A stretch of 44,132 nucleotides of DNA from NCBI GenBank assembly GCA_021809805.1, contig JAJZKA010000012.1, positions 1-44,132 on the forward strand. Direction: 5' to 3'. The notes beneath the pieces are model-generated. The model had not been told where the DNA came from. It ran no database searches and was given only the letters and a program-made list of their open reading frames with translations. Positions 3,651-44,132 of the stretch are shown here, in pieces; the stretch's first letter is position 1; each line of letters opens with the position of its first letter. The translations under genes were made by a program, and so were the position numbers. Source of the stretch: Actinomycetes bacterium (GTDB lineage: Bacteria; Actinomycetota; Acidimicrobiia; Acidimicrobiales; Bog-793).

Positions 3651-4361
3651 GTGCAGCCCGATACGATCCCGGGCCGCGAGGTCCTCAGTCGGACGATGCT
3701 CGCGGACAGCGCTTATGAAATGGTGCGCCGGCGCGTCATGGACCTGTCGATCCCACCCGACTCGCACATCAACATTGACCATCTCGCGCGTGAACTTGAC
3801 ATCTCGAACACGCCTCTGCGAGAAGCGCTCGCGCGTCTTGAGCGCGAGGGTTTCGTCGAGCGGCGAAACCTGCGCGGCTACCGCACGACAGGGCTGCTCA
3901 CCCGGCGCGCGCTGGACGAGCTGTTTGACCTCCGGCTCCTCCTTGAGCCCGAGGCGGCACGACTCGCGCGCTTGGGTGCTGACCTCCGAGCACTTGAGAC
4001 CGAGTTGCGAAAGACGCTGAACGAGATGCAGGAGATGCTCGGCCGGGCCGCTGGCGACGATAGCTATTCCCTCTATCGGGCCTTCATCGAAGCGGACGCC
4101 GCCTTCCACGCCGCCATCTCCCAGGCGTCGGGGAATCACCTGCTCCAGGCGACCTTCAGTGGCCTCAACGCGCACGTCCACCTCTACCGCCTGCTAGTCC
4201 GCTCTCGGATCGCCCCGTGGGCGGTCACCGAGCACCTCTTGGTGCTGGACGGTCTGCTCGCGCCAGACCCCGAGGAGGCGGCAGCCGGCATGCGTCAGCA
4301 CCTCGAGCGGGCCCGCCATCGCCTCATCGACCTGGTATTCGGCGAGGATGTGGACGGTTGA
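3651..4361 (+). CDS. GntR/FadR (FCD domain) family transcriptional regulator
   Basis: wHTH INIDHLARELDISNTPLREALARLEREGFVERRNLRGYRTT followed by an FCD-like helical domain. Confidence 0.9.
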   Translation: MQPDTIPGREVLSRTMLADSAYEMVRRRVMDLSIPPDSHINIDHLARELDISNTPLREALARLEREGFVERRNLRGYRTTGLLTRRALDELFDLRLLLEPEAARLARLGADLRALETELRKTLNEMQEMLGRAAGDDSYSLYRAFIEADAAFHAAISQASGNHLLQATFSGLNAHVHLYRLLVRSRIAPWAVTEHLLVLDGLLAPDPEEAAAGMRQHLERARHRLIDLVFGEDVDG

Positions 4362-27261: not shown

Positions 27262-29142
27262 ATGGACACCGCCGACATCCGCCGGTCGTATCTCGAGTTC
27301 TTCGCCGCGCGGGGCCACTGCTTGATTTCGCGGGCCAACCTCGTGCCGCGCGAGGATCCCAGCACCTTGTTCACCGGTTCAGGGATGCAGCCCCTCATCC
27401 CCTACCTCCTCGGCGCACCGCACCCCGATGGGGTGCGCCTCGTCGACTCCCAGCCGTGCTTTCGTGCCGAGGACATCGACGAGGTCGGCGACGCGCGCCA
27501 CACGACCATGTTCGAGATGCTCGGCAACTGGTCGCTCGGGGACTACTTCAAGGCCGATCAGCTGCCCTGGCTGTTTGAGTTCCTCACCGAGGTGATCGGC
27601 CTCGATCCCGCTCGCTTGTACGTGACGGCGTTCTCGGGCTCTGCCGCCTGGGACATCCCCCGGGACCAGCACTCAGTCGAGATCTGGGAGCAGCTCTTCT
27701 CCAAGGTGGCAATCGCCGCCGAGACGGTCGAGCCGGGCTCGTCCGCGCACGCGGCCGAACACGGCATCGGTGATGCCCGCATCGTCTTGTACGACGAGTC
27801 CCAGTCGTGGTGGAGCCGCTCGGGGCCGCCGGCGACGATGCCCGCCGGCGAGCCCGGGGGGCCGGACTCGGAGATCTTCTACCTCTTCCCCCAGGTCGAG
27901 CACGACCCGGCTTTCGGCGCGCACTGCCATCCCCACTGCGACTGCGGCCGCTTCATCGAGATCGGCAACTCGGTCTTCATGCAGTACCGCCGCACCGAGT
28001 CGGGCTTCGAGGAGCTCCCGCATCCAAACGTCGACTTCGGCGGCGGCCTCGAGCGGATGGCGATGGCGGCGGCAGACGCCGCGGATGTGTTCCACATCGA
28101 CCTGCTCTCGGCGCTCACCGCGACCATCGAGAAGCTCGCGCCGCGCCCCGTCGCGCACGAGACGCGCGCGCTGCGCATCATCGCAGACCATGCCCGGGCG
28201 GTGGTCTTCCTCGCACTCGACGGCGTCGAGCCCTCCAATAACACCCAGGGGTACGTGATGCGCCGCTTCGCACGGCGCGCCATGCGCCAGGGCCTGGCGC
28301 TCGGCATCGAGTCGGGCCTGCTCGCCACGCTCGTCGCCGCCGTCGTCGAGGAGTACCGCGCCGCCTACCCCGAGCTCGCGACCGGTGCGGACCACGTGCG
28401 CGAGGTGCTCGAGCGCGAGGAGTCGCTGTTTCGAAAGACGCTCGCCCGCGGCGTGCGCGAGCTGCCCCGGCTGGCGGGCGCACAGCTTTCAGGCGAGGCG
28501 ATCTTCACGCTCTTTGACACCTTCGGCTTTCCGCCCGAGCTGTCGCTCGAGGAGGCCGAGGCGACCGGCATCGCCGTCGACTCCGCCTGGCAGGCACGCT
28601 ACGAGCAGTTGATGACCGAGCAGCGCGAGCGCTCGCGCACCGCCGCCGCTGGAATGTTCAAAGGTGGCCTCGCGGACCACTCCGAGGCCACGACCAAGCT
28701 CCACACCGCAACCCACCTGCTGTACAAGGCGCTGCGGCTTGTCCTTGGTGACCACGTCGTCCAGCGTGGCTCCAACATCACCGCCGAACGGCTGCGCTTT
28801 GACTTCTCCCATCCTCAAAAGATGACCCCGGAACAAGTCGCCGAGGTCGAGCGCATCGTCAATGAGAACATCGCCAAGGACTGGACGATGCAGGTGCACG
28901 AGATGCCGCCGGACGAGGCGTTCGCACAGGGCGCGCTCGGCGCCTTCGGGGACAAATATGGGCCGCTCGTCACCGTCTATACCGCAGGTGATCCCGACGG
29001 GGAGTGGTATAGCAAGGAGATCTGCGGTGGCCCGCACGTCGAACACACCAGCGCGCTCGGCCGCTTCCGCATCCTGAAGGAGGAATCCTCGAGCGCCGGT
29101 GTGCGCCGCATCCGCGCGGTCGTGGAGGACGCCGCCCCCTGA
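27262..29142 (+). CDS. alaS: Short alanyl-tRNA synthetase (catalytic, tRNA-binding and editing domains; no C-Ala), CPR-like
   Basis: FTGSGMQPLIPYLLGAPHPDGVRLVDSQPCFRAEDIDEVGDARHTTMFEMLGNWSLGDYFK, CHPHCDCGRFIEIGNSVFMQY, NVDFGGGLERM, editing HTATH and CGGPH. Ends at FRILKEESSSAGVRRIRAVVEDAAP. Confidence 0.92.
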   Translation: MDTADIRRSYLEFFAARGHCLISRANLVPREDPSTLFTGSGMQPLIPYLLGAPHPDGVRLVDSQPCFRAEDIDEVGDARHTTMFEMLGNWSLGDYFKADQLPWLFEFLTEVIGLDPARLYVTAFSGSAAWDIPRDQHSVEIWEQLFSKVAIAAETVEPGSSAHAAEHGIGDARIVLYDESQSWWSRSGPPATMPAGEPGGPDSEIFYLFPQVEHDPAFGAHCHPHCDCGRFIEIGNSVFMQYRRTESGFEELPHPNVDFGGGLERMAMAAADAADVFHIDLLSALTATIEKLAPRPVAHETRALRIIADHARAVVFLALDGVEPSNNTQGYVMRRFARRAMRQGLALGIESGLLATLVAAVVEEYRAAYPELATGADHVREVLEREESLFRKTLARGVRELPRLAGAQLSGEAIFTLFDTFGFPPELSLEEAEATGIAVDSAWQARYEQLMTEQRERSRTAAAGMFKGGLADHSEATTKLHTATHLLYKALRLVLGDHVVQRGSNITAERLRFDFSHPQKMTPEQVAEVERIVNENIAKDWTMQVHEMPPDEAFAQGALGAFGDKYGPLVTVYTAGDPDGEWYSKEICGGPHVEHTSALGRFRILKEESSSAGVRRIRAVVEDAAP

Positions 29143-36157: not shown

Positions 36158-37825
36158 TCATCCCGGTGAAGACCCCTCGCTGATGGCCAATGGGTCACGG
36201 ACATGGAAGCGCGCGACGACGCTGTGCAGCATCGAGTCACCGCGAAGCCGGCGTGCGCGGCCGTGGACAGGTCGGCCATCATCGGTGGGCCCCTCGCTAT
36301 CGGGGGCCGGTGCCTGAAGATCTCGCCACGCCCGGCCGAGCCCGAGGACTCGATCGCCTGGCGTGTCCGCCAGCACCGCGACCTTCCCCGCACGCTCGCG
36401 CACCGGCACCGTCGCCTCGATGACACAGCCGTGTCCGGGCTCAGCGGTGATGCGCAGCGCGCCCCCAACGAGCTGGGCGCGTTCGGCCATGCCGCGCAGT
36501 CCAAGGTGTGAGGCCTGCCACTCGCCGGCGACCTGGTCGGGAACAAAGCCGATCCCGTCGTCGCGCACCTCGAGGCGGACCACGTCGGCCCCGAAGCTCA
36601 GCGTGAGCCGCACCGAGCTCGCCTCGGCGTGGCGCTCGACGTTGCTCAGCGCTTCCTGGCCGATGCGGAAGACCGTGAGCTCGACGTCACCGTCCAAGCG
36701 GCGCGGCTTTCCCTCGAGGTCGAGCTTGGTCTTGAGCCCTGCGCGACTCCCCACCTCGTCGAGCAGGCGGGCGAGCGTGGGGACGAGACCGAGATGCTCG
36801 AGCGCGGGAGGCCGCAGCCCACGCAGGATCTCGCGCAGTTCGGTGACGATCACCTCGGTGAGCTCGCGTGCGTCGGCGAGCTCGCTGCGCACGGGACCCG
36901 ACACCTCCTCGACCTCCTCGACGAAGTCGAGCGTCCGGCACAGCTGCACCAGGCGCTGCACGGGGCCGTCGTGGAGCTCCTGGGCGACCCGACGGCGCTC
37001 GTCCTCCTGCGCGCCAAGCACGTGACGGGCGTACGTCGCGGCCTCCTGCTCGCGGCGCATCTCCTCGGTGAGGTTCTCGATGACCACCTGCATCTGCACC
37101 TCGCCGCGCCGACTGCGCAACCGGCTCGGCACCGCCCGGAGGCGCGCGCCCTGCTCAGGCGCGCCAATAAGGGCGACGTTCCCCTCGAGCAGCGGCGCGG
37201 CGCTCGCACCGAACAGCTCCTCGAGTGGCCGTCCGACGATCGCGGCCCTCGAGGGTGGGATGGGGGCCGACGCAAACCTGCTCGGATCCGGCGCGCCGAG
37301 CAGGCGGCGGGCCGCATCGTTGACCTCCCGCACCACGCCATTGCCGTCGAGCAGCAGGATCGGTGCGGCATTGGCCTCGAACAGATCGCGGTATCGGTCA
37401 CGCGCGCTTTGTTCAACCGCCATCCGCCAGCCGACGAAGACGGCGACCGCATCGAGGATGAGCATCATCACGAGATCGGTGCCTGCGTCGTGAAGGCGGT
37501 GATCGCCGAGGTCCACGGCGATATCGCCGATGGCGATCAGCACGGTCACCAGCCCTCCGGTCAGCAGCGAGCCCGCCACCCCAAAGTTCAGCGCCGCGTA
37601 CATGATCGGTACGAGGAAGCACGCCTCGACGGCAAGGTCGAGCACCGAACCCGACGGGGTCGTGCCGGGGCGACCGGTCAGCAACTCGTTGCCGACGAAG
37701 ATGCCCACGACGAGCGCCTCGACAAGCAGGATGCGCGGATTGGCAAGCCAGCGGACGCGCCGAATTGCCGCCAGGACCGTCCTCGGCACGCTGGGATCGG
37801 GCGCGCGCGGCTGTGACCCTTTCAT
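36158..37825 (-). CDS. NarL-type sensor histidine kinase (TM region, PAS, HisKA_3, HATPase_c)
   Basis: EDERRRVAQELHDGPVQRLVQLCRTLDFVEEV; PAS ANAAPILLLDGNGVVREVNDAARRLLG; GQEALSNVERHAEASSVRLTL..DDGIGF..HLGLRGMAERAQLVGG. Its ATG overlaps the upstream TGA (ATGA). Confidence 0.93.
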   Translation of the reverse strand: MKGSQPRAPDPSVPRTVLAAIRRVRWLANPRILLVEALVVGIFVGNELLTGRPGTTPSGSVLDLAVEACFLVPIMYAALNFGVAGSLLTGGLVTVLIAIGDIAVDLGDHRLHDAGTDLVMMLILDAVAVFVGWRMAVEQSARDRYRDLFEANAAPILLLDGNGVVREVNDAARRLLGAPDPSRFASAPIPPSRAAIVGRPLEELFGASAAPLLEGNVALIGAPEQGARLRAVPSRLRSRRGEVQMQVVIENLTEEMRREQEAATYARHVLGAQEDERRRVAQELHDGPVQRLVQLCRTLDFVEEVEEVSGPVRSELADARELTEVIVTELREILRGLRPPALEHLGLVPTLARLLDEVGSRAGLKTKLDLEGKPRRLDGDVELTVFRIGQEALSNVERHAEASSVRLTLSFGADVVRLEVRDDGIGFVPDQVAGEWQASHLGLRGMAERAQLVGGALRITAEPGHGCVIEATVPVRERAGKVAVLADTPGDRVLGLGRAWRDLQAPAPDSEGPTDDGRPVHGRARRLRGDSMLHSVVARFHVRDPLAISEGSSPG

Positions 37826-38475
37826 CCCTGGGTTCGGCGCTCCGCGCCGGGGGCGGCCACGAGATCGTGGCGCATCGCGAAGAGCACGACTTCGGTGCGC
37901 GAGCTGACTTGGCACTTCTCAAAGATGTGGTGGAGATGCCCCTCGACGGTGCGTCGGCTGATGCCGAGGCGGCTCGCGATGCGCTGGTTCGACAGCCCCT
38001 CGGCGAGCAGCTGCACCACTTCGACCTCGCGGGCGGTCAACGCGTTGACGTCATCGCTCCGGCCGGCCGGTAGGCGCGGCGAGACTCCCACGTCGAAGAC
38101 GAAACTGCCCGAGTGCACCGCCCGCACCGCATCGATGAGCTTTTCGGGTCGGGCGGTCTTCAACAGGTAGCCCGCGGCCCCTGCCTCGAGCATCGCCTCC
38201 ACGTACTCCGGGTCACCGAAGGCCGACAACGCAAGGACTCGCGAAGCGGGGCAGCGCCGGGAGATCTCGGCGGCGACATCGACGCCGTTGCGCCCGGGCA
38301 GGAAGATGTCGAGGATCACCACGTCGGGCTCGAGCGCCGCAACGACGTCTGCGGCCAGGTCCCCACGCTCGGCCTCGCCCACCACGGCGATATCGCCGCG
38401 GCGCTCCAGGATGTGGCGCGTCCCCTCGCGGGTCATTGAGTGGTCGTCGACGAGAACGACGCGAATCGCTCGGCT
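37822..38475 (-). CDS. NarL/FixJ-family response regulator (REC + LuxR HTH)
   Basis: IRVVLVDDHSMTREGTRHILERRGDIAVVGEA, PDVVILDIFLPGRNGVDV, LTAREVEVVQLLAEGLSNQRIASRLGISRRTVEGHLHHIFEKCQV. Start approximate; the ORF extends to 38619. Confidence 0.92.
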   Translation of the reverse strand, partial: SRAIRVVLVDDHSMTREGTRHILERRGDIAVVGEAERGDLAADVVAALEPDVVILDIFLPGRNGVDVAAEISRRCPASRVLALSAFGDPEYVEAMLEAGAAGYLLKTARPEKLIDAVRAVHSGSFVFDVGVSPRLPAGRSDDVNALTAREVEVVQLLAEGLSNQRIASRLGISRRTVEGHLHHIFEKCQVSSRTEVVLFAMRHDLVAAPGAERRTQG

Positions 38476-38768
38476 GGCCACCGGCTCGGTCGCTCCCTCG
38501 ATGCCACCCCGCCCTCCGGCGTGCAGCCGCACGGCAACCGCCGCCCGCCTCACCGGATGCTCCCGGTGTTGCGACGCGGGGCGAGCGGCAGGCGCGCAGG
38601 TGGAATCACCGGGGTGCAATTTCCGAGCGGCACCGCGGGTCGGCCCGCTTGTGGGCGACCCCGCACCCGACCAGGGTGGTCACGCAAGCTCCGAACGGGC
38701 GCCGGGCGCGTGCAAGCCCGACCGCCCCCGGCGATCGCGACATGGCGCGACGAGGAGGAAGTGGACCG

Positions 38769-39254
38769 ATGCAGAGCGTCCGGACGGCCGATCGCCGGGG
38801 GGCGGCGCGCCATTCCGAGGGGACCGCCCGCTGGTGGCAGCGGCGTCCTGGTGACCCTGTCCTCGTCTCCCGGCGTGTGGCGCGCCGACTCGGTCGGCGG
38901 TTCCGCGCGATCGAGCATGAAGTCGCTGCGGAGCGGGCGGCGGCGGGTCTCGCAAAGCTCAATGAGCTCTCCTCCGCCGGCACCCGTGTCCTCGCGATCA
39001 ATGGCGCACCCGCCCGAGCGCGCTCGGGTCGGGTGCAGGCAACGCTCGTTACGGCGGCCGGGACGTGCCTCGTGCTGCGCGACGTCGCCGTCGAGCAGCT
39101 CGAGGCGGTACGAGCCCGCGTCGAGCAAGAGCCGCTCGAGATCGGCGGCGGCGCCATGCCCGGTGAGCGCGTCGTGGTCGTCCTCTCGGGACGCCGCGGA
39201 ACGTGTCACCTGAGCGGCAGCCGCCTCGAGGTGATCGCCCGATCCGCACCCTGA
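38769..39254 (+). CDS. Hypothetical protein (about 161 aa)
   Basis: SD-like gaggagg before ATG 38769; C-terminus GRVQATLVTAAGTCLVLRDVAVEQLEAVRARVEQEPLEIGGGAMPGERVVVVLSGRRGTCHLSGSRLEVIARSAP. No family recognised. Confidence 0.5.
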   Translation: MQSVRTADRRGAARHSEGTARWWQRRPGDPVLVSRRVARRLGRRFRAIEHEVAAERAAAGLAKLNELSSAGTRVLAINGAPARARSGRVQATLVTAAGTCLVLRDVAVEQLEAVRARVEQEPLEIGGGAMPGERVVVVLSGRRGTCHLSGSRLEVIARSAP

Positions 39255-39268
39255 CGGCGCGTTCCGCA

Positions 39269-41656
39269 TTACCGCCCGCCCGACTCGACGCGCGAGGCGA
39301 GCGCCCGATCGACGACCTTCAGCGCCGCCGATGCGTCGACGTCGTGCGCGTCAGTGCCGATCCGCTCGACCAGCTCGGCGCGAGCCGCCACGAGGAGGTC
39401 GCGGCGGCCACCGGCGAAGCGGAGCAGGCGGTGGCCCGCCATCGCGGCACTCGCTGATGGCGCCAAGGCTCGGGCGTGCGCGGCAAGATCGCTCCGCGAG
39501 GGCGCCGGCAGCAGCACGCCGGCGATCTCGTCCGCAAGGCCCGCCAATTGCGACGCCGCGTCGCCGGGAGCGAGTACCGCCTCGGCCACGACTTCCGCCC
39601 CATTGCCCTCGAGCGCCGCGCGCAAGATCGCCGGCGCCTTCCTCGGCGCGACCCCATAGGTGCAAAACGTCGCAAACTTGCGGGCACCAAGGCTCGGCAA
39701 CCCCTCCAGCCATCGCCGCGTGGGACGCGCGGGCTGGACGCCTGCGACCACAAAGCCCTCCACCCAGGTGCCCACCACCACGAGGTCGGCGGCCGCGATC
39801 TCGGCCAGACCGACCGCGGCGAGCCGCTGCAGGTTGACACTGAGGCCCCGCGCGTCGAGCTCGTGGGCAAGCGCGGTCGCCGCGCGCTCGGTGCGACCGC
39901 CGCGGCTCTCATAGGCAATGAGAACGGCGGGCTCGCGTCCGGGCACCGCATGGGGGTGCCGCGACGGGCGTTGCTCAAGGATGGACTGCGCGGCACGGCG
40001 CCCCTGGGCCATCGCCTCGACGACCGTCGCCGGCCCGACGAGCGCGTCGCCGGCCACCCAGACCCGCTCCCCTGCTCCGAGCCCGGCAGACAGTCGGCCG
40101 ACCTCACGCCCGAGCGCGAGCGTGCCGACGGGCTGGTGGCGGGCAAAGGGCGGTGCGCCACCGGCCAGCAATCCGCTCGCCTGCCACTCGCGTGGCGGGA
40201 TCCCGCGGGCCCGGCGGCGCAGCGGCGCCCCGGGGACCAGTGGCGCGAACCCCTGATCGAGGCGATAGCCCATCGCCATCACGACGAGATCGACCTCCAG
40301 GGTCGCCGCGCCGTGCTGGACCACCTTTGGCGCCTTGTTGGCTTTGTCCTGGCGAGTGCGGCTGAGCACGGCAAGGCGGACCTTTCCTTCAAGGCCCTCC
40401 AGGCGCTCGAGCGTCGAGCAGAAGCGGATCTCCACGCCTTCTTCGGCGGCCTCGGTCAGCTCGTCAGGACGCACCGGAGCAAAGCGACGGTCCATCCAGT
40501 CCACGCAGATCGCCCGGTGGCCAAAGCGCCGCGCCAGGCGAGCGACGTCCATCGCCGTGTTGCCCGCCCCGAGCACGAGGACCGTCGCGGGCCGCCCGTC
40601 GGTGGTCTCGAGCAGGTCGAGCTCGCGCCCTTCAGCAAGTGCAAGGTGCGCGCGGGTCAAAAAGCGAGTCGCGTCGCAGACGCCTTCGAGCTCCCCGCCA
40701 GGCACCGGCAGTCGCAGTGGCACCCCTGCACCATGGGCGAGGACCACGGCGTCGTGGTGACGCAGCAGCGTGGCCACCTGGTCGGGCGCGACCTCGCTCT
40801 CGCAGCGCAGGTCGACCCCAGCCTCGCACAAGGCCGCCCAGGGGCGCTCCGCCACGGCGGCGGGCAGGGTGAACTCGGGAATCCCCCAGACGAGGAGGCC
40901 CCCCGGGCGCTCGGACTTCTCATAGACGGTCACCGCCGCACCCGAGCGCACGAGCTCGTAGGCCGCACCGATCCCGGCGGGCCCGCTGCCGATGATGCCG
41001 ACCGACATTCCCTCGCCCCGCTGGTCGACGGGCACCGGTGCAGGCACCGGCGCGTGGTCGGCGATGAAGCGCTCGAGCGCCCCGATCGCCACCGGGGCGC
41101 CGCCGGCGAGCGACCAGCTGCAGGACCCCTCGCACTGCACGGCCTGGTCGCAGACGCGCGAGCACACGTCGGGGAGGAAGGTCGTGCGCGAGAGCACGGT
41201 GTGTGCGGTCTCGAGATCGCCCGCGGCAAGCGCCCGGACGAAGCCAGGAATGTCGTTGTGGACCGGGCATCCCCGCACACAGGTCGGGTCCGGGCAGTCC
41301 AGACAGCGGCTCGCCTCGGCACGCGCGGCCTCCAGGCTCGAGATCCCCGGGCGGGTCTCTTCGCGCGAGCCCAGCAAGGACTCGGGATGGTGCGGGGCGA
41401 GGACGACCCGCTCGTCGACGAGCAGCGGCCCGTCGACGGTGATGGCAGCAAAGGGGCAGGTGCGAACGCACTGGCGGCAGCCCACGCAGCGCGCCTCGTC
41501 GACCTGGGCGATCCATCGCGCCAGATCCATCGACAACGCGGCGGCCGGGCAGCGCACCACGCACTCCTGACAACCCGCACAGCGGTCGCTCAGCACCTCG
41601 ACGTGCGGGTGTGCCCACTGCGCCGGGTCGGCGATGCGGTTTTCGGTGACGGTCAC
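39269..41656 (-). CDS. Multidomain redox protein: 2x[4Fe-4S] ferredoxin + GltD-like FAD/NAD(P)H oxidoreductase + flavodoxin-like C-terminus
   Basis: CAGCQECVVRCP, CVGCRQCVRTCP; CLDCPDPTCVRGCPVHNDIPGF..CSRVCDQAVQCEGSC; GIIGSGPAGIGAAYELVRSG; VLVLGAGNTAMDVARLARRFG; VWVAGDALVGPATVVEAMAQGRRAA; AVLIAYESRGGRTERAATALAHEL..DLVVVGTWVEGF. Confidence 0.87.
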   Translation of the reverse strand: MTVTENRIADPAQWAHPHVEVLSDRCAGCQECVVRCPAAALSMDLARWIAQVDEARCVGCRQCVRTCPFAAITVDGPLLVDERVVLAPHHPESLLGSREETRPGISSLEAARAEASRCLDCPDPTCVRGCPVHNDIPGFVRALAAGDLETAHTVLSRTTFLPDVCSRVCDQAVQCEGSCSWSLAGGAPVAIGALERFIADHAPVPAPVPVDQRGEGMSVGIIGSGPAGIGAAYELVRSGAAVTVYEKSERPGGLLVWGIPEFTLPAAVAERPWAALCEAGVDLRCESEVAPDQVATLLRHHDAVVLAHGAGVPLRLPVPGGELEGVCDATRFLTRAHLALAEGRELDLLETTDGRPATVLVLGAGNTAMDVARLARRFGHRAICVDWMDRRFAPVRPDELTEAAEEGVEIRFCSTLERLEGLEGKVRLAVLSRTRQDKANKAPKVVQHGAATLEVDLVVMAMGYRLDQGFAPLVPGAPLRRRARGIPPREWQASGLLAGGAPPFARHQPVGTLALGREVGRLSAGLGAGERVWVAGDALVGPATVVEAMAQGRRAAQSILEQRPSRHPHAVPGREPAVLIAYESRGGRTERAATALAHELDARGLSVNLQRLAAVGLAEIAAADLVVVGTWVEGFVVAGVQPARPTRRWLEGLPSLGARKFATFCTYGVAPRKAPAILRAALEGNGAEVVAEAVLAPGDAASQLAGLADEIAGVLLPAPSRSDLAAHARALAPSASAAMAGHRLLRFAGGRRDLLVAARAELVERIGTDAHDVDASAALKVVDRALASRVESGGR

Positions 41657-41667
41657 GGATTCCCCTC

Positions 41668-43230
41668 CTACGGCGCAGCGTGCATGGCGACGTACAGAAC
41701 ACTGGCCAGCAGGCCGAAAGCGGCGGCGAGCCCGACGGCGCTGAAGCGAGCCAAGAGCGGCCGGGTGGCGATCGCCGTCAGCTCACGGCCCGAGATGCGC
41801 CAGCTGGTCCACATCGCCGCCAACGTGCCGATGGCGATGACGACCACCTGGATGGCGACAATGCCCGATCCGGTGGCGATGCTCGTGTGGTAGAGCAACG
41901 AATGGGTGGACCCCGCACCGAAGAAGTGGCCCACGGCGGGCACCACGCGGGGGGAGTGCAGCAAGAACTTCGGGAGCTGGCGGGCGAAGTAATCAGCACC
42001 CACCACCGGCACGATGCCGTACATCAACGGCTGGAAGAAGCTCCGGAACGCGCTGGTCCGCTCGAGAAACGTCCCGGGCCGGTCCAGGTTCATGTCGCGC
42101 CGGCCGAGGGCGAGCTGGATCACCTTGGCCAGACCTGCCGTCACCGCCGCCGCGAGGCCGATGAGGCCGAGGTAGTCGATCGGGTTGGGGTACTGGGGAA
42201 AGTGCGTGTAGCGGTTCAGCCAGGAGTCCAGCCTGGCGTAGAGGTTGAGGGCGTTGAACTGCTGGAAGACGACGAGGCCCCAAAGCAACGCGATCGCCCA
42301 TGCCACATCGATGCGCCGTCTCGTTGGCGCCACGATCGAGGTGAGCGGCTTTTGCACGTACAACCCGATGTTGTCGCTCGGACAGGCCTTGTAGCACTCG
42401 CTGCACAGCCCGCAGGCCAGGTTCGAGTCCGCGCTCCCCGGCCAGGTGTACCAAGGGCAGCCATAGCCGGACTCACCGCCGCGCATGCAGTCCTTGGTGT
42501 TGCACGACAGGCAGACCTGGCGATCCCGGGTGCGAAATCCCGCCACCGAGCCGATCCCGCCGACCGTGCCGATCACTGCCGACAGCGGGCAGATGTAGCG
42601 GCAGAAGGTCCGGCGGTCGAAGAGCAAGAAGAACGTGAGCGCGCTCGCCACGATGCCGAGCACCATGAGGCTCGTCGCGACGGGGTTGCCCGGTCCGGCG
42701 ATGTTGAAGAACTCCTCGATCCAGGTGAGGAGCAAGAACGAGCCGACCGAGAGCAAGAAGCCATAGCGGGCGATCGGCTCGGGGAGGGTGCGACCGAGGC
42801 CGAGGCGGTGCTGGGTTCGCCGCCAGAAGCTGCGGCGCTGTATCCATTCGGCGAAGCCTCCGAACGGGCACATCACACACCAGGCCCGGCCGACGACCAC
42901 CATCATCACGAAGACGAGGCAGAACCACACGTACCACGTGATGGCCGTGCCGAAGTTGAGCCCCGGCACCACGCTGCCGAGCACGCCGACGAAGATCACG
43001 AGCCAGAAGATCAGCTGGTTCGGCAGAATGAGGAAGAACTGAAACTTGCGACTCCTCAGCAGCCGCGCAATGTGCGGATTTCGAGCGAGGTCCCAACCCC
43101 GGGGCGGATCGCTCGGCCCGAAGCGTTGCTCCATGCCCCGCGACTCGCGCGGTCGCAGGCGAACGGCGACTGCGACCGGATCGGCACGCGGCGGCAACGA
43201 TTGCTCGGATCGCTCCTCGAGCAGTGTCAT
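41668..43230 (-). CDS. NosR/NirI/NapH-like membrane polyferredoxin (4Fe-4S binding protein)
   Basis: CVMCPFGGFAEW, CRYICPLSAVIGT, CLSCNTKDCMRGGESGYGCPW, CGLCSECYKACPSDNIGLYVQKP, with several TM segments. Confidence 0.87.
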   Translation of the reverse strand: MTLLEERSEQSLPPRADPVAVAVRLRPRESRGMEQRFGPSDPPRGWDLARNPHIARLLRSRKFQFFLILPNQLIFWLVIFVGVLGSVVPGLNFGTAITWYVWFCLVFVMMVVVGRAWCVMCPFGGFAEWIQRRSFWRRTQHRLGLGRTLPEPIARYGFLLSVGSFLLLTWIEEFFNIAGPGNPVATSLMVLGIVASALTFFLLFDRRTFCRYICPLSAVIGTVGGIGSVAGFRTRDRQVCLSCNTKDCMRGGESGYGCPWYTWPGSADSNLACGLCSECYKACPSDNIGLYVQKPLTSIVAPTRRRIDVAWAIALLWGLVVFQQFNALNLYARLDSWLNRYTHFPQYPNPIDYLGLIGLAAAVTAGLAKVIQLALGRRDMNLDRPGTFLERTSAFRSFFQPLMYGIVPVVGADYFARQLPKFLLHSPRVVPAVGHFFGAGSTHSLLYHTSIATGSGIVAIQVVVIAIGTLAAMWTSWRISGRELTAIATRPLLARFSAVGLAAAFGLLASVLYVAMHAAP

Positions 43231-43285
43231 CGCATTCCCCCTCTAGGTAAAAACCTGTCTGCCCACGTATCTGCACGCAGGATCG

Positions 43286-43307
43286 TTATACGTAGATTTA
43301 CCTATAA
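43286..43307. promoter_or_regulatory. Inverted repeat TTATACGTA-GATT-TACCTATAA, candidate CRP/FNR-type or other dimeric-regulator site
   Basis: 9-bp arms matching 8/9 with 4-bp spacer, in an AT-rich stretch 56 bp upstream of the polyferredoxin start codon. Confidence 0.5.
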
Positions 43308-43597
43308 CATCAAGTTGGCCGCTCAAGATAGGAGTTCAGCCACCCTCGGGACCTCCGTCATCGGGAAAGGGACCAAAGTCCTCCGCCCACACTGGCTTTC
43401 GGAACGCCGCGTCTTTTAAAAAGTCCTCTATTTCGCAGCGGGGGCGCACCGCCGGTACCCGAAGCAGCGGGCCCAGGTTGACGGCGCTGCAACGTGGGAG
43501 CTGGCGTGTCCGCCCTGCCGATCTGGCCGGCTCCTTGCCACCTCAATGGCGGCCGTTCATGTTGAGTGTCCCCGTCATGTTTCCACGACGCGGGCGC

Positions 43598-44132
43598 ATG
43601 AACCACCGCATCGTGATCATCGGCGGCGGGACCGCCGGCCTCAGCGTCGCTGCTCGATGGCGACGCCTCGGGATGCGGGACGTCGCGCTCGTCGAGCCCG
43701 CCAGCACCCACTGCTACCAGCCGCTCTTCAGGTTCGTCGGCGCGGCCGCCGTCCCCCTCTCACGCAGCGCGCGGAGTGAGGTCGACCTCGTTCCCCAGGG
43801 TGTCGCGTGGATCCGCGACGCGGTCGCGGCCAACGATCCCTCCGAGCGCCTCCTGCAGAGCGAGAGCGGCGCACGGATTCGCGACGACGCCTTTGGTGCT
43901 CACCTTGGGGTGGAGCTCGCCTGGGACCTCGTGCCCGGGCTCTCCCAGGTCATGGCGAGCCCGGCTGCCAGCTCCAACGACGCGGCCGGCCTCGCCGACA
44001 ACACGCGTCGGCTGATCGAGCGCTTCGAAGGCGCCAGCGCGCTCTTCTGCGCCCCGGGCAACGCCCATCACGTGCCCCGGCGCCCCGCAGAAGGCCGCTC
44101 ATCTCGCGAGCGGCTTCTGGCACGGCCACGGG
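43598..44132 (+). pseudogene. Sulfide:quinone oxidoreductase-like FAD protein; runs off the window and appears frameshifted
   Basis: MNHRIVIIGGGTAGLSVAARWRRLGMRDVALVEPASTHCYQPLFRFVGAAAVPLSR then ..VELAWDLVPGL. CPGAPQKAAHLASGFWHGHG is found only after a frame change near 44061. Confidence 0.65.

Follow-up and report, generated by a model that had tools for sequence, protein, structure and literature searches.

In membrane complexes such as Rnf and Nqr, flavins and iron-sulfur (Fe-S) clusters link NADH to a second electron carrier. Among soluble enzymes, NfnB/NfnI-L and GltD have an FAD/NAD(P)H core and two [4Fe-4S] clusters, with a glutamate among the cluster ligands. AegA and YgfT of enterobacteria join a ferredoxin-type N terminus to a GltD-like module (PMC8097209), and DsrL, an NAD(P)H oxidoreductase, has a GltD-like core along with a long linker and, at its C terminus, a module for one-electron transfer (PMC7596348). 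In the membrane, NapH-like proteins (PF12801: NapH, NosR, PceC) combine CxxCP and CxxxCP motifs at the ends of transmembrane segments with ferredoxin-type clusters; NapH has been called a putative quinone-binding subunit, and flavinylated NapH-like systems pass electrons outward to periplasmic enzymes (PMC8238504). Here, we analyzed a stretch of 44,132 bases (the window), which is the entire contig G000:C9 of a 3.57-Mb draft genome of an Actinomycetes bacterium and in which the gene of a membrane polyferredoxin (PF) is followed by that of a soluble Fe-S flavoprotein (FUS). PF and FUS are an obligate two-gene module in Acidimicrobiales (acid-loving actinobacteria). With a probability that we put at roughly one half, they would together form a membrane-anchored, two-subunit NADH oxidoreductase that passes electrons to a membrane partner, most likely quinone. 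The parts are known (a NapH-like membrane Fe-S protein, a GltD/Nfn-like flavoprotein, and a flavodoxin), and it is the obligate pairing that appears to be new. No description of the pair was found in the open-licence literature searched, and the survey in PMC8238504 would miss it because FMN-binding partners were its selection criterion. Compared with Rnf and Nqr, PF-FUS has two genes instead of six and showed no sequence relation to them in family scans.

Both genes lie on the minus strand, PF first, with 11 bases between them (41657-41667):

41668..43230, minus strand: PF, membrane polyferredoxin of 520 residues with ca. 9 to 10 predicted transmembrane segments and 12 invariant cysteines (open reading frame; Fer4_5 twice; hydropathy)
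39269..41656, minus strand: FUS, soluble iron-sulfur flavoprotein of 795 residues with a GTG start, partner of PF (open reading frame, adjacency, co-occurrence)

An earlier note on this DNA had described FUS as a fusion lying directly downstream of a polyferredoxin, with an 11-bp gap, and both reading frames are indeed open as listed. It had also proposed a distinct redox module, which holds for PF and FUS, conserved together and not an accessory of nap or cco. In a first survey, FUS stood behind PF in 88 of 90 loci, and both misses were contig ends. Across 102 non-redundant loci, the two genes were adjacent and co-oriented in every case (median gap, 16 bases), although this set was selected for carrying both genes, and the unbiased figures are the 88 of 90 and the genome-level count. 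The latter was obtained from 80 genomes, nearly all of them at least 90% complete and picked by PF status, with FUS orthologues accepted only at an E value of <1e-140 and with a match starting at the N-terminal ferredoxin. FUS orthologues were found in all 41 genomes with PF versus none of the 39 without it, where the best matches were ordinary GltD/Nfn proteins. Given these two results, the pairing is far from chance, and the failure to co-occur in relatives that the earlier note had considered fatal was clearly not seen for PF and FUS. Along similar lines, 12 cysteines in PF and 16 in FUS were 100% conserved among the 102 pairs, and the distance matrices of the two proteins were correlated (r = 0.79, with 0.21 as the best of 500 permutations).

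PF was present in 24 of 60 close relatives, and the module was present in 81 of the 397 genomes of the order. A species-level genome collection contained 238 stretches encoding a PF relative; the named ones were almost all metagenome-assembled genomes (MAGs) labelled Acidimicrobiaceae, Acidimicrobiales, or Actinomycetes. Across a sample of the phylum, only the order and one more distant genome (L152) gave strong PF matches, and the weaker ones (E values of 1e-44 to 1e-75) were different proteins in other actinobacterial groups, without FUS. The pair in L152 (3394-7861), outside the order and the most distant of all, is arranged as a NarL-type regulator, PF, FUS without flavodoxin, and then an FdxA-type ferredoxin. 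A plasmid collection provided only distant stand-alone PF relatives, with no GltD-like gene among the annotated neighbors of the four that were opened. Genome G065, which we take to be that of Acidimicrobium ferrooxidans DSM 10331, has a PF-FUS pair with a divergent Rrf2-type gene; this species is apparently among the carriers, and the module would be testable now in a cultured organism. In one locus (L110, 13363-17939), PF and a FUS without flavodoxin are directly followed by genes that, as read from the sequence, look like a NiFe hydrogenase operon of group-3 type, with an Fe-S protein, a cNMP-type protein, an FAD/NAD protein, and the small and large subunits.

The invariant cysteines of PF fall into the following elements, with coordinates obtained by arithmetic from residue numbers for the first:

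42868..42879, minus strand: PF cysteine motif 1, C118-x2-C121-P, after predicted transmembrane segment 2, cytoplasmic side
42589..42603, minus strand: PF cysteine motif 2, C210-x3-C214-P, after predicted transmembrane segment 4, cytoplasmic side
42382..42513, minus strand: PF ferredoxin-like loop, C240 C243 C248 C258 / C273 C276 C279 C283, predicted to hold two [4Fe-4S] clusters, cytoplasmic

By ligand count, PF would hold two ferredoxin-type [4Fe-4S] clusters, and one further cluster is probably held by the CxxCP and CxxxCP motifs. The four Cys clusters reported earlier are correct as cysteine motifs, but they would correspond to fewer metal clusters. According to hydropathy and the positive-inside rule, the cysteine loops are positive and predicted to be cytoplasmic, with neutral or negative intervening loops in the N-terminal half; therefore, PF is predicted to expose its clusters on the side of the membrane where FUS resides.

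In Pfam, PF matched only Fer4_5 (PF12801, NapH/NosR-type; 42.4 versus 22 bits), in two stretches. Other assignments failed. As NapH, PF scored 25.1 versus 213 bits (TIGR02163) and 26.5 versus 234 (PRK09477); as NosR or PceC, it should have an N-terminal extracytosolic FMN_bind domain, but Pfam gave no such match at E values up to 0.001, and a short cytoplasmic N terminus was predicted; and CcoG was not among its NCBIfam matches, with ccoN not found in 16 PF genomes in which the control was positive. A NosZ probe of the genomes gave no match, but control genomes gave none either, and a PDB profile search with PF returned nothing convincing. The earlier observation that nosZ and the nap/nir catalytic genes are missing here was true for the stretch read, and assignment to a known nap or ccoG pathway was not supported. 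PF also differs from NapH-like proteins in its extra C-terminal transmembrane helices. Known systems of this kind face quinol and the periplasm, while the constant partner of PF is a cytosolic enzyme predicted to depend on NADH.

These data bear on an alternative in which PF would move NADH electrons across the membrane to Cu/Fe ions or a periplasmic enzyme, in maturation or metal reduction like that of CcoG/NosR. We consider it improbable. PF does belong to Fer4_5 together with NapH/NosR-like proteins, but besides the missing CcoG and NosR matches and the missing ccoN, no periplasmic FMN or metal-binding domain was detected, and all PF cysteines are predicted to be cytoplasmic. A cupredoxin/Fe-S/NrfD cluster adjoins the pair, which would suit such a role, but only in a handful of loci, and it is unlinked in the window genome (contig C35). 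That many carriers come from acidic, metal-rich sites, judged from MAG names, is also consistent with a metal reductase.

FUS contains a Fer4 dicluster (residues 22-73), Fer4_20 (107-202), Pyr_redox_2 (218-469), and a flavodoxin (ca. 577-700), which correspond to four parts:

41438..41593, minus strand: FUS N-terminal 2x[4Fe-4S] ferredoxin domain, residues 22-73, with C26 29 32 36 / 57 60 63 67
41051..41338, minus strand: FUS GltD/Nfn-type Fe-S domain, residues 107-202 (Fer4_20, ligand conservation)
39971..41014, minus strand: FUS FAD/NAD(H) domain, residues 215-562, with D/E386-W387 replacing YRR
39557..39928, minus strand: FUS C-terminal flavodoxin domain, residues 577-700, with FMN loop S584-x2-G587-x-T589; optional in the family

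The best PDB profile match of the core was 4ylf_B (2.9e-97), with 5vj7_A and 5jca_L also found (NfnB/NfnI-L and GltD), and the AlphaFold2 model (mean pLDDT, 80) matched the fold of 5jca_L with an E value of 4.1e-34 and a TM-score of 0.76 on the target. Using the 4ylf alignment and the published NfnB ligands (PMC7596348), we assigned C118, C121, C126, and C179 to the distal cluster and C130, C169, C175, and E195 to the proximal one; all of them are conserved. FUS also fits the GltD-like class (GltD, NfnB, DPD, AegA), which is defined by two [4Fe-4S] clusters followed by an FAD/NAD(P)H domain that resembles adrenodoxin reductase. Within this class, more specific identities were rejected, with 261.8 bits versus a cut-off of 471.75 for NADPH-dependent glutamate synthase (TIGR01316) and, against curated cut-offs, 205.2 versus 1003 and 182.8 versus 1154 bits for AegA/YgfT. 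Unlike NfnB and GltD, FUS has an extra N-terminal 2x[4Fe-4S] domain, a C-terminal flavodoxin, and a fixed pairing with a membrane protein, and it lacks an NfnA or GltB partner; we found neither an FNR/[2Fe-2S] domain in FUS nor such a constant neighbor cluster around PF-FUS.

The use of NADP(H) has been tied to the YRR motif (PMC7596348). At this site, at the end of the second Rossmann strand, FUS has D/E386 in 99 and W387 in 98 of the 102 loci, mostly followed by D389. Because D/E-W-x-D replaces YRR, general Rossmann-fold rules favor NAD(H), so that NADH rather than NADPH is the predicted substrate, and an NADP-specific Nfn/DsrL-2 identity was discarded with the missing motif. The only exceptions, in L136, L138, and L140, read R-R-S and may use NADP. 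They belong to a divergent paralogue of the whole pair (ca. 40% identity, without flavodoxin), which in L138 follows an Fe-S/NrfD cluster.

Up to residue 562, the domain order of FUS resembles that of AegA/YgfT (ca. 28 to 30% identity over ca. 540 to 560 residues), and the plasmid matches listed for the latter stop short of the flavodoxin. To our knowledge, AegA and YgfT have no PF-type partner. DsrL has the same core but carries a ferredoxin, not a flavodoxin, at its C terminus, lacks the extra N-terminal ferredoxin, and works with DsrAB (PMC7596348). By analogy, FUS might work for a terminal enzyme that is soluble, as is the case for DsrL and supposed for AegA, leaving PF mainly as a membrane anchor or electron source; however, apart from regulators, no constant third gene was present in the 102 loci, and we regard this role as very doubtful.

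The C-terminal domain of FUS resembles short-chain flavodoxins, with PDB flavodoxins matching at ca. 1e-8 and a Pfam score in the window (24.3) just below the cut-off of 25. The FMN loop residues S584, G587, and T589 were kept in 79 of the 80 members that have the domain. It was scored as present in 78 of 101 members and absent in 23, including the deepest branches, although two absences are artifacts, L088 being cut by a contig end and L025 apparently split by a frameshift. Presence and absence changed at least 12 times on the PF tree, a history that is approximate only, as some deep branches are long. The flavodoxin thus looks like an optional attachment to a core that, judging from these patterns, works without it.

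This architecture would also suit a generator of low-potential reductant, in which NADH and/or quinol would reduce ferredoxin or the fused flavodoxin against the potential gradient, to the benefit of ferredoxin-dependent enzymes such as POR/OGOR. The driving force would be either bifurcation at the Nfn-type FAD or a membrane potential acting through PF. We consider this unlikely. Every cluster ligand of bifurcating Nfn is retained in the FUS core, but GltD, which has this core too, does not bifurcate electrons of NADPH to ferredoxin, and no NfnA-type subunit or other bifurcation partner is encoded alongside. The frequent fusion to flavodoxin and the FdxA-type gene beside FUS in L152 point to a low-potential acceptor, whereas the absence of flavodoxin from deep branches, and repeatedly from others, points away from it. 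Likewise, POR/OGOR has been reported as near-universal in Acidimicrobiia (PMC11697166), but the module is restricted to about a fifth of the genomes sampled from the order (81/397, above). That PF-FUS is a minimal two-subunit complex making such reductant, and so does with two genes in the acidophilic, largely aerobic Acidimicrobiales what Rnf/Nfn do elsewhere, seems quite unlikely to us, although it would be much more novel than an NADH-quinone link.

In the NADH oxidoreductase that we prefer, cytosolic FUS would exchange hydride between NADH and FAD, and single electrons would then move from FAD through the proximal and distal [4Fe-4S] clusters to the N-terminal 2x[4Fe-4S] ferredoxin domain. 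From there, they would reach the cytosol-facing [4Fe-4S] clusters of PF and finally the membrane partner, for which quinone, also the proposed partner of NapH, is the likeliest candidate. Where present, the flavodoxin could act as an optional one-electron outlet or buffer. Transfer might run either way, as NADH disposal under restricted respiration or as quinol-driven NAD+ reduction powered by the proton gradient. Lithotrophic acidophiles need the latter. The conduit between NAD(P)H and the quinone pool suggested by the earlier note survives as our preferred reading, a conduit to the membrane for which D/E386 and the missing YRR predict NADH.

Several results weigh against this proposal. Neither a quinone site nor a terminal partner could be assigned to PF-FUS, the AlphaFold2 model of PF was poor (pLDDT, 52), and among the traits compared between the 41 genomes with PF and the 39 without it (NrfD, hydrogenase, and RuBisCO), none fully predicted the module. 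NrfD was enriched in PF genomes (36/41 versus 14/39), a difference that is confounded by phylogeny and kept as a lead. Hydrogenase (5/41 versus 6/39) and RuBisCO (9/41 versus 2/39, mostly in one family) were not predictive. If true, the NADH oxidoreductase would give acidophilic actinobacteria, which often cycle metals, one more site at which electrons pass from NADH into the membrane or back. It would also make PF-FUS a candidate for balancing NADH, quinone, and ferredoxin, for example, in the ferredoxin-dependent CO2 fixation proposed for Acidimicrobiia (PMC11697166).

Regulatory genes were the recurrent neighbors of the pair. Genes in neighboring loci were called with our own codon-usage open reading frame caller, so that small genes may be missed and starts are approximate. 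Of the 69 loci with enough flank, and counting as near those genes up to three upstream or four downstream, 49 had an Rrf2-type regulator, 35 had a NarL-type response regulator, 57 had one or the other, and 29 had a histidine kinase; as a background comparison, regulators 5 to 8 genes away were almost absent. By inspection of their sequences, the Rrf2-type proteins (Pfam Rrf2) contain C-x6-C-x5-C, a motif also present in Fe-S sensing regulators. The window has a two-component system instead of an Rrf2 gene:

37822..38619, minus strand: NarL/LuxR-type response regulator, start uncertain; associated, probably regulatory (Response_reg and GerE)
36158..37915, minus strand: membrane histidine kinase with PAS and HisKA_3, start uncertain (37789 or 37915); probably regulatory (domains, neighborhood)
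43285..43314, minus strand: predicted PF-FUS promoter, TTGATG-17-TATAAC (conserved upstream pattern)

Elsewhere in this genome, contig C194 encodes an Rrf2 relative (47% identity), and C173 encodes another kinase of this type (38%). Because regulators recur beside most loci, the two-component system at 36.2-38.6 kb is probably linked to PF-FUS. Either of the two kinases of the genome could be the orthologue of those near PF-FUS in other loci. Control by this system, left undecided in the earlier note, is now favored by a co-location far above background (the response regulator in 35/69), while control itself remains a prediction. Expression would be set by the NarL-type system and/or an Rrf2-type Fe-S regulator, that is, by redox, NO, or Fe-S status. 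Upstream of PF, the promoter pattern CTTGA(C/T)(A/G)-N15-19-TANNN occurred in 61 of 102 loci and in at most 4 in 100 shuffles. A palindrome search for a regulator site in the same region gave weak signals only. Two Rrf2-type regulators (L141:7425-8393 and L180:8250-9173) have an unusually long C-terminal half, with ca. 310 to 350 residues in total; a 231-residue protein of L034 groups with them by similarity, and their C-terminal part may be a separate domain.

On the other side of PF, the window ends in a further flavoprotein gene:

43598..44132, plus strand: SQR-like flavoprotein fragment, outside the module, frameshifted and truncated where the contig ends (sister comparison, neighborhood counts)

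The earlier note had included this gene in its set. It is divergent, from 43598 onward, but it adjoins the pair in only 2 of the 102 loci, the window and its sister, and was discarded as a third component; for SQR, the lack of co-occurrence in relatives was real. Compared with the intact 397-residue sister gene (L022:9858-11051), the window frame has a net +1 insertion at ca. 44,049-44,065 and a probable compensated indel pair at ca. 43,890-43,912. These differences fall within 43886-44065, right beside the end of the contig, and the gene here is a broken or mis-sequenced fragment, from a sequencing error or a dying gene.

Other neighbors recurred in ca. 7 loci, as in L141 (5029-6584), with a 360-residue protein, often together with one of 150 to 160 residues to which no function was assigned. 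The larger protein has weak similarity to DUF455 and the ribonucleotide reductase small chain and could be a ferritin-like di-iron protein. In the window, a small plus-strand gene without assigned function (38901-39236) converges on FUS and is 75% identical over 112 residues to the product of a gene in the sister species, 129 residues long and encoded at the corresponding position (L022:5131-5520). An Rfam scan of the window gave no match. ARAGORN called a tRNA of undetermined anticodon at 3906-3997, inside a predicted GntR-type gene, which is probably a false positive. Finally, an alanyl-tRNA synthetase-like protein is encoded at 27262-29142, with only 626 residues, short for that enzyme.

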